In this document: positions 34,753 through 39,249 of the stretch, one piece after another | Layout: every line of letters begins with the position of its first letter | How positions within the stretch are numbered: the stretch's first letter is position 1 | From: Lentzea albida | GTDB taxonomy: Bacteria; Actinomycetota; Actinomycetes; Mycobacteriales; Pseudonocardiaceae | Direction: 5' to 3' | DNA: 64,000 nucleotides | NCBI RefSeq assembly: GCF_900111005.1 | Contig: NZ_FOFV01000006.1 | Coordinates: 186,001-250,000 of the forward strand | The notes under the pieces: model-generated | What the model was told of the DNA's origin: nothing | The model's database searches: none | The model's input: the letters and a program-made list of their open reading frames with translations, nothing else | Made by a program: the position numbers and the translations under genes

Positions 34753-35604
34753 GTGCCCGAATCGCTCACCGTCGACGAGCTCGCCGCCCGGATCGGCCTG
34801 CCCAGCAGCACCATTCGCATGTACCAGACGAAGGGTGTGCTGCACGCGCCGAGACGGCAGGGGCGCGTGGCGTACTACGACGCCTCGCACGTCGAGCGGT
34901 TGACGTTGGTGCAGCGGTTGCAGCAGCGGGGGTTCTCGCTGCCCGCGATCGCGGAACTGATCTCGGCGCGCGAAAAGGGCGAGTCGGTCGCCGCGGTGCT
35001 CGGCATGGGCGAGACCGAGGGGCCCGACGACTGGGTTCGGATCAAGGTGCGCGACATCCGGCACCTCGTTCCGATGGGTGAGGTCCAACCGCGACTCCTC
35101 CTCCGGGCCATGCGGTTGGGTTTGGTGCGGTGGAAGTACGGCTGGCCGCACGCGCGTCGCTGGGCACTCGAAGCGGGCGGCCGGTTGGCCGGCCTACGGG
35201 TGCCCAGCGATGACGTCATGGACAGCTTTACGCGCCTGCGCACGGCGACCGACGCGGTGGCGGCGGACTTCGTGCGGTTGTTCGAGCGGCAGTTCTGGCC
35301 CGAGCTCGCGCGCAAGGCGGGCGACGAGAACCAGCTGGAGAACGTGCGGGCGTTGCTGGTCGAGCTGACGTACACGGCGGAGACCGCGGTGGTGGGGACG
35401 CTGCGGGAGTCGATCCGGGACGCGGCCGAGGAGTTCGCGTCGCGGCACGGGTTGCTGCCGAGCGACGACTACCAGCCCGCGTGGGCCGAGCAGCCGTTGC
35501 CGCCGATCGCCGAGAACCTCATGGACCCGGCGGGGGACCTGCCGAGCGAGCAGGAGATCGAGAACTTCCTGAAACGGGGGGACGAGGATGAGCCTGGTCG
35601 CTGA
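34753..35604 (+). CDS. MerR-family regulator of the TOMM operon
   Basis: 283 residues. N-terminal MerR winged helix: LTVDELAARIGLPSSTIRMY, then VAYYDASHVERLTLVQRLQQ and GFSLPAIAELI. The long C-terminal region (about 85-283) is helical and not recognised; it has no Cys cluster of metal-sensing MerR proteins. It is the first gene of a five-gene overlapping operon (17-bp overlap with the next gene), so it probably controls the peptide pathway and itself, through the palindrome just upstream. Confidence 0.82.
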   Translation: MPESLTVDELAARIGLPSSTIRMYQTKGVLHAPRRQGRVAYYDASHVERLTLVQRLQQRGFSLPAIAELISAREKGESVAAVLGMGETEGPDDWVRIKVRDIRHLVPMGEVQPRLLLRAMRLGLVRWKYGWPHARRWALEAGGRLAGLRVPSDDVMDSFTRLRTATDAVAADFVRLFERQFWPELARKAGDENQLENVRALLVELTYTAETAVVGTLRESIRDAAEEFASRHGLLPSDDYQPAWAEQPLPPIAENLMDPAGDLPSEQEIENFLKRGDEDEPGR

Positions 35605-36382
35605 TCCCGCCTGGCACGCCCAGGTTCGAGACGAAGGCCTTGTCGTGTACGCGGGTGCGGATCTCGCGTACCTGATCCCGGACCTGCCCAGGGCGGTGGC
35701 CGTGGCGCTGGCGGGACTGTTCGAGCCGGTTTCGAGGGGAGCGGCTCGAACGGTCGACGAGAACCGGTTGGGGGAACCGGTTCGCCAGCACGTGGCCCAG
35801 CTGAGGACCCTGGGCGCTCTCCGCCCGGCCGGGTTGCCCGCCGACGACGCGCAGAAGCCGATGGGGGTCGGCACGCGCGTCGTCGGGGAGGCACCCGCCG
35901 GGCTGGTAGAGCGGTTGCCGCACGACGAGGACCCGGACCTCCTGCTCGTCGTGCGGACCACCGGCACGTTGGTCGACCTGGTCGAGGTGGCGCGCGAGAC
36001 GGAGGTCCCGCACCTGTTGCTGGACCTCGCGTACCACCACACCGCCGCCGTCGGGCCCTTCGTGGTGCCCGGTGCCGGCGCGTGCCTGGCGTGCCTCGCG
36101 GTGCGGGCGGGGCGGCGGTGGGGGGATCCGCCGCCTCCGCCGCACCCGGCGGCGACGTCCTACGAGTTCCCGATCTCCCTTGCACTGCAAGCGGTTCAGA
36201 ACATCCGCAACGGCTCGCTGGCGTTGCTCGACACGGTCGTCACCGTCCACCTGGACGAGTTCACGACGACGCGCGAGAGCGTGCTGCCCGCCGCCGGCTG
36301 CGAAGTCTGCCCGACGGTCGAGTTCGGGCGCGTGTCACTTCCTTGGGGGAACCATGAACGCGACGGCAGTGCGGTTACCTGA
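35588..36382 (+). CDS. TOMM leader-binding E1/ThiF-like protein (cyclodehydratase C-type)
   Basis: 264 residues. The first 80 residues look like a winged-helix RiPP recognition element; the remainder is a degenerate E1/ThiF-like fold of the kind called Ocin-ThiF-like. Two CxxC pairs (C166/C169 in ACLACLA and C238/C241 in GCEVCP) should bind one structural zinc. No ATP-binding glycine-rich loop is seen, as expected because the YcaO partner binds ATP. In such pathways this protein binds the leader peptide and presents the precursor core to YcaO. It overlaps the regulator gene by 17 bp and the precursor gene by 29 bp. Confidence 0.78.
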   Translation: MSLVADPAWHAQVRDEGLVVYAGADLAYLIPDLPRAVAVALAGLFEPVSRGAARTVDENRLGEPVRQHVAQLRTLGALRPAGLPADDAQKPMGVGTRVVGEAPAGLVERLPHDEDPDLLLVVRTTGTLVDLVEVARETEVPHLLLDLAYHHTAAVGPFVVPGAGACLACLAVRAGRRWGDPPPPPHPAATSYEFPISLALQAVQNIRNGSLALLDTVVTVHLDEFTTTRESVLPAAGCEVCPTVEFGRVSLPWGNHERDGSAVT

Positions 36383-36887
36383 CCAGTTCTCACCGGGTGC
36401 GGCCGCCGCCAACGCCGCGACGCCCACCTGTTGCTGTTGTTGTTGCTGCTGCGCGGTTTCCTCAGTCGGCGCGGCCGTGCACATCCCCGCGGCGCTGCAC
36501 CGGGAGACGCAGGACCTCCCGCAGCCGCGCAGCCTGCTCGTCCTGCCCGCCGCGATCTTCCCGCTGCTGGTCGTCGTGCTGCCGTTCGCCACGATGGGCG
36601 CGGTCTTCGACCTGCACTGGGGCTGGTGGCTCGGCGGCTTCGCGGCGGCGCTCGCGTGGGCCACCGCCTCCGGTTTCCTCGCCAGGTCACCGAACCCGGT
36701 GGGCAGCGTGGTCCGGTTGCTCGGCTGGTCCGCCCTGTGGTTCCTGGAGCCGTTCGTCGTGCTGTTCACGCTGGGACCGATCGCCTCCGTGGACGAGGGT
36801 GTCGCGGCGGTGGTCGGTGTGCTCTACCTCGGCGGGGCCTTGGCGCTCGGGTACAGGATCTTCCGGCGGTACCGGGGGAAGCGATGA
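36354..36887 (+). CDS. Putative TOMM precursor: poly-Cys core fused to a membrane domain
   Basis: 177 residues. Residues 1-25 are a leader-like stretch (NATAVRLPDQFSPGAAAANA), then eight consecutive Cys (26-33) after TPT and before AVSSVG, reminiscent of the CCCCC core of streptolysin S precursor. From residue 60 onward there are four hydrophobic helices (about 61-83, 89-109, 120-143, 148-168) and a basic tail RIFRRYRGKR. ATG 36354 follows GGGGGA by 3 nt. Its position between leader-binding protein and YcaO genes supports a precursor role: Cys would become thiazol(in)es. The membrane domain is not known to me in TOMM precursors. Alternative: a membrane protein with a metal-binding Cys run. 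Confidence 0.72.
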   Translation: MNATAVRLPDQFSPGAAAANAATPTCCCCCCCCAVSSVGAAVHIPAALHRETQDLPQPRSLLVLPAAIFPLLVVVLPFATMGAVFDLHWGWWLGGFAAALAWATASGFLARSPNPVGSVVRLLGWSALWFLEPFVVLFTLGPIASVDEGVAAVVGVLYLGGALALGYRIFRRYRGKR

Positions 36888-38038
36888 GGACCGTGGCGGA
36901 GGCGCTGGTCGAGCGCGCGGTCGGCTGGCGCCAGGGCGTGGTGTCGCAACTGCACCCCGTGCCGCACAGTCTGTCCGATGTGGACCTCCAAGGCTGGGCC
37001 GCGGTGCCCGAGCCGTTCGCGACGGGTGGCACGTCCGGTGGCACCACCAGGGTCGCCGCCATCGCCGAGGCCCTGGAACGCCACGCCGCCGCACGGGCAC
37101 GGCTGGAGGTCGTCACCGAGGGCGAGTGCTGGCCGCTCGAACACTTCAGCCTCCACACCGTGGAGCAGCGGGTGGCCCCGAACTACCGCTACCGCAAGGG
37201 ATACGTCAACACCCCGTACACGCGGGCGTGGACGCTCCCCGGCAACGACCCGATCCGCGTCCCCGCCGGCCTCGTGGCCCTGGACGCGTCCTACGGCCTG
37301 CCCGCGACCTCGTCCGGCCTGGCGGCGGGCCCGTCGACGACCAGCGCGCTGCTGCGCGCGGTCCAGGAACTGGTGGAGCGCGACGCGTTCACCACGACCT
37401 GGCTGCATTCCCTTGCACCGCAACGCTTCGACGCCGGCCTCCCGCACGGCGCCCAGGCGTTCGACCTCACCCCGGCCTACAGCCCGCACCCGGTGGTCGC
37501 CGTGGCGGGCTCGCTCCCGATCGCCGGCAGGCCCCGCCCGACGCTCGGACTGGCCTGCCGTGCGACCACCAAGGAGGCGGTCCGCAAGGCCTACGAGGAG
37601 TGGGTGCAGGGCACGGTCTTCGTCGAGGTGTGGCTGGCGCGCAACGGCGACGGTCCCGTCGAGGAAGCCACCGACTTCGACGAGCACGCCGCCTACTACG
37701 CCACGCACCCGGCGAAGTGGGACGACCTCCCGTGGTTCCAGGGCTTCGAGGCGGATCCGCCACCGGACGCCCAGACCCGGGGCACCACGGCTGAACTGAC
37801 CGAACTGGTGCACGCCCTCGACCGCGCGGGCATCCGGCTCGCCTACCGCGAGCTCACCACACCGGAACTCTCCGCCGTGGGCCTGCACTGCGTCCGGGTC
37901 CTGTCCCCGGACCTGGCCCCGCTGCACTCGGACCACCGCTGGCCCCACCTGGGCGGCCGCGCCGCGGAGCTCGACTGGCGCTACCCGCACGCCTCACCGG
38001 GCGCGTTCCCCAATCCCGCACCGCATCCCCTGGGGTGA
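36884..38038 (+). CDS. YcaO-family cyclodehydratase (SagD-like)
   Basis: 384 residues. YcaO ATPase that activates the peptide backbone so Cys/Ser/Thr cyclise to azolines. ATP/Mg-binding motifs: AAIAEALERHAA and AVQELVERDAF, and GGTSGGTTR near the N-terminus. The C-terminus ends NPAPHPLG, giving the PxPxP motif that marks azoline-forming YcaO proteins rather than other YcaO types. Its ATG overlaps the precursor stop (ATGA) with GGGGGAA upstream, and its stop overlaps the dehydrogenase start (GTGA). Confidence 0.88.
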   Translation: MRTVAEALVERAVGWRQGVVSQLHPVPHSLSDVDLQGWAAVPEPFATGGTSGGTTRVAAIAEALERHAAARARLEVVTEGECWPLEHFSLHTVEQRVAPNYRYRKGYVNTPYTRAWTLPGNDPIRVPAGLVALDASYGLPATSSGLAAGPSTTSALLRAVQELVERDAFTTTWLHSLAPQRFDAGLPHGAQAFDLTPAYSPHPVVAVAGSLPIAGRPRPTLGLACRATTKEAVRKAYEEWVQGTVFVEVWLARNGDGPVEEATDFDEHAAYYATHPAKWDDLPWFQGFEADPPPDAQTRGTTAELTELVHALDRAGIRLAYRELTTPELSAVGLHCVRVLSPDLAPLHSDHRWPHLGGRAAELDWRYPHASPGAFPNPAPHPLG

Positions 38039-38697
38039 AGCCGATGTTCGACGACTTCTGGGCCGCGAGCCGCTTCTCACCGCTGCACCAGCGCAGGCTG
38101 GGCGACCGCCTGCGGGACTTCCGCCCGCCGCCACAGCTCGTCGACCCGCTGGAACCGCCCACGCCCCCGGTCCCGCTCCCCCGCCCGAACGACCGGCTGC
38201 AGAAGCTCTTCCGGGCACGCAGGAGCACCCGGGAGTTCACCGGCGAGCCGCTGAGCGACAAGCAGCTCGGCGCGGTCCTGGGCGCCCTGTCCGACGACAG
38301 CGTCCCCTCCGCGGGCGGGCTGAACCCGTTGCGCTGCTACGCCTTCGTCCACGGCCGCGCGGTCCGCTACGACATCCGGCGCCACGCGCTGCAGGACCTC
38401 GGCCCGGCACCGGACGACCTGGCCCAGATCCTCGGCACCCCGTCCACACCACCGCTGACGATCGTGCTGGTGCTCGCGGACAAGGACTCGTTCGAGAAGT
38501 ACGGTGAACGCGCGGGCCGCTTCGGCCTGATCGAGGCAGGCGCCGCGGCGCAGACCATCTGCCTCCGCCTGGCGCAGGAGAAGCTCGGCGGCCACCTGCT
38601 GGGCGGAGTGGCCGACAACGAGATGCTCCACTCGCTGGGGCTGCCACGAGAACTTCGCGTGGCCACAGCAATCGCTTGCGGGCACATGATCACCTGA
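38035..38697 (+). CDS. SagB-type FMN-dependent azoline dehydrogenase
   Basis: 220 residues. Nitroreductase-fold oxidoreductase: FMN-binding RARRSTREFTGEPLSDKQLG at about 60, PSAGGLNPLRCYAFV, and EAGAAAQTICLRLAQEKLGG. In TOMM pathways this enzyme oxidises thiazolines/oxazolines to aromatic thiazoles/oxazoles. Last gene of the overlapping operon; GTG 38035 overlaps the YcaO stop, ATG 38044 is an alternative start. No transporter, leader peptidase or immunity gene follows: the next gene is a separate secreted phospholipase. Confidence 0.85.
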   Translation: MKPMFDDFWAASRFSPLHQRRLGDRLRDFRPPPQLVDPLEPPTPPVPLPRPNDRLQKLFRARRSTREFTGEPLSDKQLGAVLGALSDDSVPSAGGLNPLRCYAFVHGRAVRYDIRRHALQDLGPAPDDLAQILGTPSTPPLTIVLVLADKDSFEKYGERAGRFGLIEAGAAAQTICLRLAQEKLGGHLLGGVADNEMLHSLGLPRELRVATAIACGHMIT

Positions 38698-38781: not shown

Positions 38782-39249
38782 ATGTCGAACACCCTGCGCT
38801 CGGCGTTCGTGGGAGCCACCGCCTCCCTCGCCCTCGTCCTCACCGGCACCCCGGCCCTCGCCGTGGACGTCGTCGCGGTCACCGACGACTACCTCTACTC
38901 GAAGTCCCTGAGCCAGTTCACAGCACTGCGCGCCCAGCAACCCAACGCGGACCAGCTCGACTGGTCGTCCGACGGCTGCTCGTACTCGCCGGACAACCCC
39001 TTCGGCTTCAAGTTCCTGCCGACGTGCCACCGCCACGACTTCGGCTACCGCAACTACAAGCGCCAGGCCCGCTGGAACGAGGCGAACAGGCTTCGCATCG
39101 ACAACAACTTCAAGGCCGACATGTACAACCAGTGCGGCTCGAACTGGGCGTGCAAGCGCACGGCCGACCTGTACTACGCGGCGGTGCGCGAGTTCGGCGG
39201 CAGCGCGAGTTCGACGGCCACGAGCATCCAGCAGGCCGGCCTGAAGTAG
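38782..39249 (+). CDS. Secreted prokaryotic phospholipase A2
   Basis: 155 residues. A Sec signal peptide with hydrophobic core ASLALVLTGTPALA (cleavage after ALA near residue 27) precedes a small PLA2 domain with the catalytic CHRHDFGYRNYK (His-Asp pair) and four Cys expected to form two disulphides. Hydrolyses the sn-2 acyl bond of phospholipids outside the cell. The ATG has AGAGGAG 6 nt upstream. An 84-bp gap separates it from the TOMM operon, so co-function is not implied. It ends 1 bp before the convergent ftsK end. Confidence 0.9.
   Translation: MSNTLRSAFVGATASLALVLTGTPALAVDVVAVTDDYLYSKSLSQFTALRAQQPNADQLDWSSDGCSYSPDNPFGFKFLPTCHRHDFGYRNYKRQARWNEANRLRIDNNFKADMYNQCGSNWACKRTADLYYAAVREFGGSASSTATSIQQAGLK

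Follow-up and report, generated by a model that had tools for sequence, protein, structure and literature searches.

A YcaO cassette in Lentzea and scattered relatives with a four-helix membrane protein as its predicted azole substrate

The cyanobactin heterocyclases LynD and TruD and the microcin B17 synthetase McbBCD act on soluble peptides. In the streptolysin S (SLS) or cytolysin group of thiazole/oxazole-modified microcins (TOMMs), typified by SagA-SagBCD, cyclodehydratase and dehydrogenase are encoded by discrete genes and the precursor has a contiguous heterocyclisable core after its leader, according to Cox et al. 2015 (PMC4603692). Precursors of ribosomally synthesised and post-translationally modified peptides (RiPPs) that sit in the producer's membrane are in print with other chemistries. 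The TMcin precursor TmcA, described in a June 2026 preprint (PMC13252029), spans the membrane with a single helix and carries a disulfide in place of azoles; its operon includes an intramembrane protease, an escort and an ATP-binding cassette (ABC) transporter. The introduction of the preprint says that no RiPP-processing enzyme had been characterised on transmembrane proteins, and the terms "YcaO" and "thiazole" are absent from its text. TIGR04222 proteins, found mostly in Actinomycetota, and MerC-bufferin fusions are described in PMC12452194 as multi-helix membrane proteins with a C-terminal, predicted periplasmic Cys-rich segment thought to be modified by multinuclear non-haem iron-dependent oxidative (MNIO) enzymes. 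Here we describe a four-gene cassette of Lentzea albida, from a genus of soil bacteria, in which a YcaO enzyme and its partners accompany a 177-aa protein with eight consecutive Cys and a predicted four-helix membrane domain. The window, meaning the whole stretch of DNA analysed, comprises 64,000 nt of assembly GCF_900111005.1 (NZ_FOFV01000006.1 positions 186,001 to 250,000, forward strand).

The four genes form an overlapping operon in the order leader-binding protein, precursor, YcaO and SagB-like dehydrogenase, so that the precursor gene does lie between the leader-binding and YcaO genes, as a preliminary description of the sequence had placed it. The precursor gene overlaps the leader-binding gene by 29 nt and ycaO by 4 nt; a 4-nt overlap also joins ycaO to the dehydrogenase gene. 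The features are as follows.

35588..36382, + strand: leader-binding (C-type, ocin-ThiF-like) protein, 264 aa, CxxC pairs C166/C169 and C238/C241 (TIGR03882, AlphaFold2 and PDB matches)
36354..36887, + strand: predicted azole substrate, a precursor fused to a four-helix membrane domain, 177 aa, ATG...TGA
36354..36428, + strand: leader-like segment, residues 1-25, motif RLPDQFSPG...ATPT (R7, P9, F12 and A22-T25 invariant in 18/18 aligned members)
36429..36452, + strand: octa-Cys core, residues 26-33 (identical across 21 Lentzea sequences)
36453..36488, + strand: post-core segment, residues 34-45, AVSSVGAAVHIP (pairwise identity 0.933 in Lentzea)
36531..36878, + strand: predicted four-helix membrane domain, helices 60-79, 89-109, 115-144 and 148-175 (AlphaFold2 model, loop charges)
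36747-36749, + strand: codon of Glu132 (invariant in 18/18 members)
36884..38038, + strand: YcaO cyclodehydratase (D protein), 384 aa, C-terminus PNPAPHPLG (PF02624, TIGR03604)
38035..38697, + strand: SagB-like dehydrogenase of the nitroreductase family, 220 aa, Lys155-Tyr156-Gly157 (PF00881, TIGR03605)

We consider it probable that this is a cassette of the TOMM or linear azol(in)e-containing peptide (LAP) type whose substrate is a polytopic membrane protein, and whose product most likely remains as a polythiazole anchored in the membrane. The sequence-based grounds for this reading are the order of the genes, their co-occurrence and joint decay, their conservation, and the predicted topology and folds; from them we infer leader recognition, cyclodehydration, oxidation, the absence of cleavage and the role of the product.

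Compared with the described systems, the cassette has the YcaO (D protein), the leader-binding partner (C protein) and the optional flavin mononucleotide (FMN) dehydrogenase (B protein) of a TOMM/LAP locus. Unlike an SLS precursor, the Lentzea protein is long, has a membrane domain and carries a pure Cys core. The 2015 survey (PMC4603692) kept only precursors shorter than 150 aa (450 bp) in whose C-terminal half Cys/Ser/Thr made up at least 45%; the Lentzea protein has 177 aa and 7.9%. Cytolysin precursors have Gly followed by at least ten heterocyclisable residues; here the run reads ATPT, eight Cys, Ala, with no Gly directly before it, and just one member out of 18 matched the cytolysin precursor model TIGR03602 (E 0.027). 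None of the four genes encodes the ABC transporter or CaaX-like protease of cytolysin loci, or an immunity protein, the genes further out not having been scanned for them. TMcins share with this protein the embedding of a precursor in the producer's membrane, but their single helix, S2P-like protease, TmcBC and TmcE contrast with about four helices and no such gene in the cassette. TIGR04222 and MerC-bufferin proteins differ in using MNIO enzymes on a C-terminal segment, whereas the Lentzea segment is N-terminal, predicted to be cytosolic and paired with YcaO; TIGR04222 was not among the seven NCBIfam families matched by any of the 18 members at E ≤ 0.1. Searches of the open-licence PubMed Central library, judged by titles, abstract openings and selected papers, brought up no YcaO pathway whose precursor is a membrane protein, and within them the earlier remark that no TOMM precursor with a membrane domain is known still stands.

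The preliminary description had read the 36354-36887 frame as a leader-like N-terminus, Cys at 26-33 between TPT and AVSSVG, and a basic end, and we confirmed each of these. The run is preceded by ATPT and followed by AVSSVGAAV, then by a short variable linker, the membrane helices and the basic tail. The frame is coding, since G+C at its third codon positions is 0.90 and the ratio of nonsynonymous to synonymous polymorphism (pN/pS) lies below 1 in all five of its regions among 21 Lentzea sequences. Mean pairwise identity in this set is 1.000 for the Cys run, 0.907 for the leader, 0.933 for the post-core, 0.645 for the linker and 0.640 for the membrane domain, with pN/pS of 0, 0.23, 0.18, 0.46 and 0.66, respectively. 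Across 18 diverse members, identity to the window protein is 49-100% in the N-terminal module and 13-78% in the membrane part; in most members the post-core is similarly spaced from the Cys run, and most of the distant ones share its hydrophobic and Ser/Thr pattern. Most members have eight Cys, with C6 in genome G019 and C-S-C8 in G058 and G020; outside the class, G881 has C7 and CC-S-C7 and G860 has C9, giving the distant members overall 6 to 9 Cys and at times one Ser. No significant family was found for the precursor in Pfam, NCBIfam or PDB sequence searches.

The Cys codons, in order TGT TGC TGT TGT TGT TGC TGC TGC, are the TGT/TGC mixture reported earlier, though they do not strictly alternate as had been stated. 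TGT makes up 96/168 of the run codons in the 21 Lentzea sequences versus 2/39 Cys codons in 17 other genes hand-picked from the window (Fisher p 4.6e-10, which overstates the evidence because the Lentzea sequences are related), and 23/81 in ten precursors of other lineages versus 9/70 in their neighbour genes (p 0.027). The rare TGT is fixed at run positions 1, 4 and 5 in 21/21 Lentzea (36429-36452), while it is scarce elsewhere in the window. The mixture would interrupt a CTG-type triplet repeat, which may be the reason for this codon use.

Intact precursors, with leader and Cys run, were found in 28 of 297 genomes of the host family and in two genomes outside the class. The family search listed 54 of the 297 genomes at E ≤ 0.01; besides the 28 accepted, G088 is degenerate and 25 were taken as chance, on E-values of 4.2e-4 or worse, short coverage or stops, the sequences inspected among these 25 being L047 and, for G021, G057 and G059, the MerR loci that lack the cassette. 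The 28 carriers comprise 22 of the 24 listed genomes of the same genus and six from other genera. Profile searches brought no new member from 397 genomes of the order or 296 of the class; 396 genomes of the phylum gave the two outside the class, G881 with two tandem precursors and G860 with nine Cys. There was no further member in the order of G881 (118 genomes) or the class of G860 (24 genomes), and no precursor relative in the plasmids and viral contigs searched. The genome searches cover one phylum, and in each genome the profile searches score just a few top candidates out of many, so that members can be missed.

In all 30 genomes with an intact precursor it is flanked by leader-binding and YcaO genes; this includes the shorter loci of all 28 family genomes, and all 25 longer loci with an intact precursor keep the order leader-binding gene, precursor(s), YcaO, dehydrogenase. 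Whole-protein homologues away from YcaO genes, which the preliminary description had named as grounds for abandoning its idea, were thus not encountered. The separate searches it had called for, with leader-only and membrane-only profiles (200 genomes each), returned known loci and remnants and no free precursor, one match in G081 being left unread. All 17 named loci that match the window are from Lentzea, at up to 90% identity. Tandem precursor genes occur at L065 9371-10374 and L062 9549-10735, each copy with leader, Cys run and membrane domain; a two-component product is possible there.

Co-occurrence was examined in 55 hand-chosen genomes that included eight known carriers, with a YcaO threshold of E ≤ 1e-10. 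Eight genomes had the cassette YcaO, and they were the same eight, one of them with a broken YcaO; the other 47 lacked it, including four (G021, G029, G057 and G059) with weak precursor matches taken as chance. The carrier G201 has an additional, distant YcaO elsewhere (32% identity). In the carrier G088 the central part of YcaO is missing, the leader-binding gene is fragmented and the Cys run is broken up. In G159 and G172 the same chromosomal site retains only fragments of the leader-binding gene, membrane part and dehydrogenase gene, and there was no match to YcaO. The genomes searched yielded no intact leader and Cys run that lacked the enzymes. The decayed cassettes of one genus (L070 9426-9851 of G088, L137 and L138) hold fragmentary leader-binding, YcaO or dehydrogenase genes beside a fragment of the membrane domain, conserved helix included, that is still an open frame.

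The boundaries of the cassette were drawn from loci with and without it. Two neighbouring genes adjoin it in the window.

34753-35601: MerR-type regulator, 283 aa, directly upstream of the cassette
38782-39246: prokaryotic phospholipase A2 (PLA2), PF09056, adjoining the cassette

In 17 Lentzea and six other family loci the cassette lies between GNAT-MerR and PLA2-FtsK, with about 2.4 kb between dehydrogenase and PLA2 in L068. In four cassette-free genomes, two of Lentzea and two of genus g21, MerR abuts PLA2 and all four cassette genes are absent together; at one of these empty sites (L097) FtsK follows after about 9 kb. A fifth cassette-free genome (G057, L100) has MerR and GNAT but no PLA2 match. 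Because the empty sites lack this block, the unit gained or lost in these genomes is the four genes, without a transporter, protease or immunity gene. MerR, GNAT and PLA2 were rejected as parts of the system, as they remain where the cassette is absent (four of five genomes); PLA2 is a neighbour. The two genomes outside the class have the cassette in other surroundings. The contig of L063 starts 323 bases before the leader-binding gene, and a downstream gene on the opposite strand looks by eye like an ABC-2 permease.

Several further matches were read and set aside. The source genome has (TGY)6 at four places beyond the precursor, three of which, including a weak profile match on its contig C31, run antisense to or out of frame with long frames whose base bias is coding-like and were rejected. 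The fourth (L110, G000 C22:303572-303595, minus strand) encodes C8 within an open frame of 47 codons; the opposite strand has a 222-codon, Gln-rich frame in which this bias is weaker. The C8 frame is probably chance rather than a short gene. The source genome gave no match to the cassette YcaO at E ≤ 1e-10 except the window's own. The matches in G594 and G834 were rejected on reading, a second weak match in G083 (C22) was inspected and not counted as a member, and the profile matches in G008, G159 C3 and the source genome's C31 were rejected, that in G008 because its letters resemble those of the antisense C31 frame. None of four weak matches from a further profile search has a Cys run of six. 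One of them, L073 in G1182, has ATPTCCC in a short frame with a stop (profile E 6.2e-4), with no other cassette protein match within 3.1 kb.

The partner proteins point to azole formation. The leader-binding protein scored 36.2 bits against TIGR03882, 0.7 bits under the cut-off of 36.9; all 12 aligned homologues match this family at E ≤ 0.01 and both CxxC pairs are invariant in 12/12. The top PDB matches to its AlphaFold2 model, with a predicted local distance difference test score (pLDDT) of 80.2, were the heterocyclases TruD and 4v1t-v, which we take to be LynD, followed by MccB and the McbBCD complex. Unlike those enzymes, the Lentzea C and D proteins are separate genes and the predicted substrate is a membrane protein. 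The YcaO protein reached 98.5 bits with PF02624 (cut-off 25.7) and 115.7 bits with TIGR03604 (cut-off 219.25), and its P-x-P-x-P tail, a feature typical of azoline-forming YcaOs, is invariant in 12/12. The dehydrogenase scored 70.7 bits with PF00881 and 35.9 bits with TIGR03605 (cut-off 78.4), with KYG invariant in 10/10. The YcaO linkage and the resemblance of the leader-binding model to azoline enzymes support the earlier proposal of a TOMM precursor with a built-in membrane domain.

Four membrane helices had been proposed. The AlphaFold2 model of the precursor (mean pLDDT 70.5, predicted template modelling score 0.52) has four, at 60-79, 89-109, 115-144 and 148-175, and simple hydropathy analysis of 13 members finds three or four segments downstream of the Cys run, with a hydrophobic stretch also beginning at the run itself. 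The model also draws residues 30-52 as a helix, a structure that thiazole formation would be expected to abolish. It had no significant fold match, copper-storage proteins being among the very weak ones. Topology, which had been left for prediction, was assessed from loop charges in 18 members, with helix borders set by hand from the model. Ahead of helix 1 the net charge is positive in 12 members and negative in 3; loop 1-2 is negative in 15/18, loop 2-3 positive in 17/18, loop 3-4 positive in 0/18 and the C-tail positive in 18/18. This pattern fits an N-in/C-in topology in most members, which would place the head on the same, cytosolic side of the membrane as the enzymes. Glu132 is invariant in 18/18 despite the diverging membrane part, and Pro115 and Arg121 are nearly invariant. 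Since an acidic residue is conserved inside a membrane helix, the sequences suggest that the domain may do more than anchor.

We propose a pathway in which the leader-binding protein would recognise the RLPDQF leader and offer the Cys run to YcaO, which would cyclodehydrate up to eight Cys to thiazolines for oxidation to thiazoles by the SagB-like enzyme. The C-terminal domain would thread its four helices with both termini in the cytosol, leaving the modified head at, or folded into, the cytoplasmic face of the producer's membrane. The product would stay and act in that membrane, and we picture it provisionally as a flat, rigid rod of eight thiazoles, hydrophobic in character, that lies next to the helix bundle either on the bilayer or within it. 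Retention is favoured because the cassette lacks a protease and transporter, the core is invariant, every tandem copy has a membrane part of its own, and the predicted topology agrees.

The rival that deserves most attention, though we judge it unlikely, is a released peptide resembling SLS or a bacteriocin: the head would be modified, cut off by a distantly encoded protease and exported, with the membrane domain as an export aid or for self-immunity. SLS-type precursors likewise have contiguous heterocyclisable cores, the linker between post-core and first helix is variable (identity 0.645), and the cassette has been lost in some genomes. Cox et al. 2015 noted precursor genes far from their enzymes (PMC4603692), and proteases could be distant too. 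Set against this are a block bounded by empty sites that contains no transporter, protease or immunity gene, a core that is invariant in Lentzea, a membrane domain in every tandem copy, and a predicted N-in topology that keeps the head in the cytosol. Improbable in our estimate is an unmodified Cys run that binds soft metals or acts in redox, with YcaO and its partners serving another target. Poly-Cys binds metals in general, and the copper-storage proteins among the very weak fold matches would suit it; a known metal-binding membrane family over both parts, named at the outset as a disproof, did not appear with significance in the family and PDB searches. We give least credence to a different backbone change by YcaO, such as a thioamide or amidine. 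The C-type partner with its heterocyclase-like fold, the dehydrogenase gene, the P-x-P-x-P tail and the pure Cys core all speak for azoles instead. In favour of this rival, YcaO enzymes have been reported to act on large proteins such as McrA and ribosomal protein uL16 (PMC5589413 and PMC13063428).

Several observations weigh against a retained polythiazole membrane protein. A protease or exporter for release could sit elsewhere in the genome, and cassette loss in some relatives together with the scatter outside the family looks more accessory than housekeeping. The window's leader-binding, YcaO and dehydrogenase proteins all score under the curated NCBIfam TOMM cut-offs. The confidence of the precursor model is modest, hydropathy gives the window protein only three segments after the Cys run, and a membrane domain evolving as fast as its pN/pS implies fits a mere anchor and equally a dispensable part. 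We still prefer the retained, membrane-anchored product. That it represents a class of membrane proteins permanently bearing a rigid chain of about eight thiazoles, with azoles formed for cell physiology and not for a secreted product, is a more tentative proposal, to which we give slightly less than even weight.

TOMM genome mining has assumed short precursors, and the 2015 filter (PMC4603692) would pass over a membrane-fused family, because only short precursors with Cys/Ser/Thr-rich C-terminal halves were kept. If the reading is correct, a leader with a Cys run anywhere in a larger protein would become a criterion to search with. Modification of the head would mean that azole-forming enzymes can act on a membrane protein with several spans. 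This would suggest a lasting, cell-internal role for polyazoles, and would extend the thiazole chemistry of peptide antibiotics to a protein retained in the membrane of the cell that makes it.
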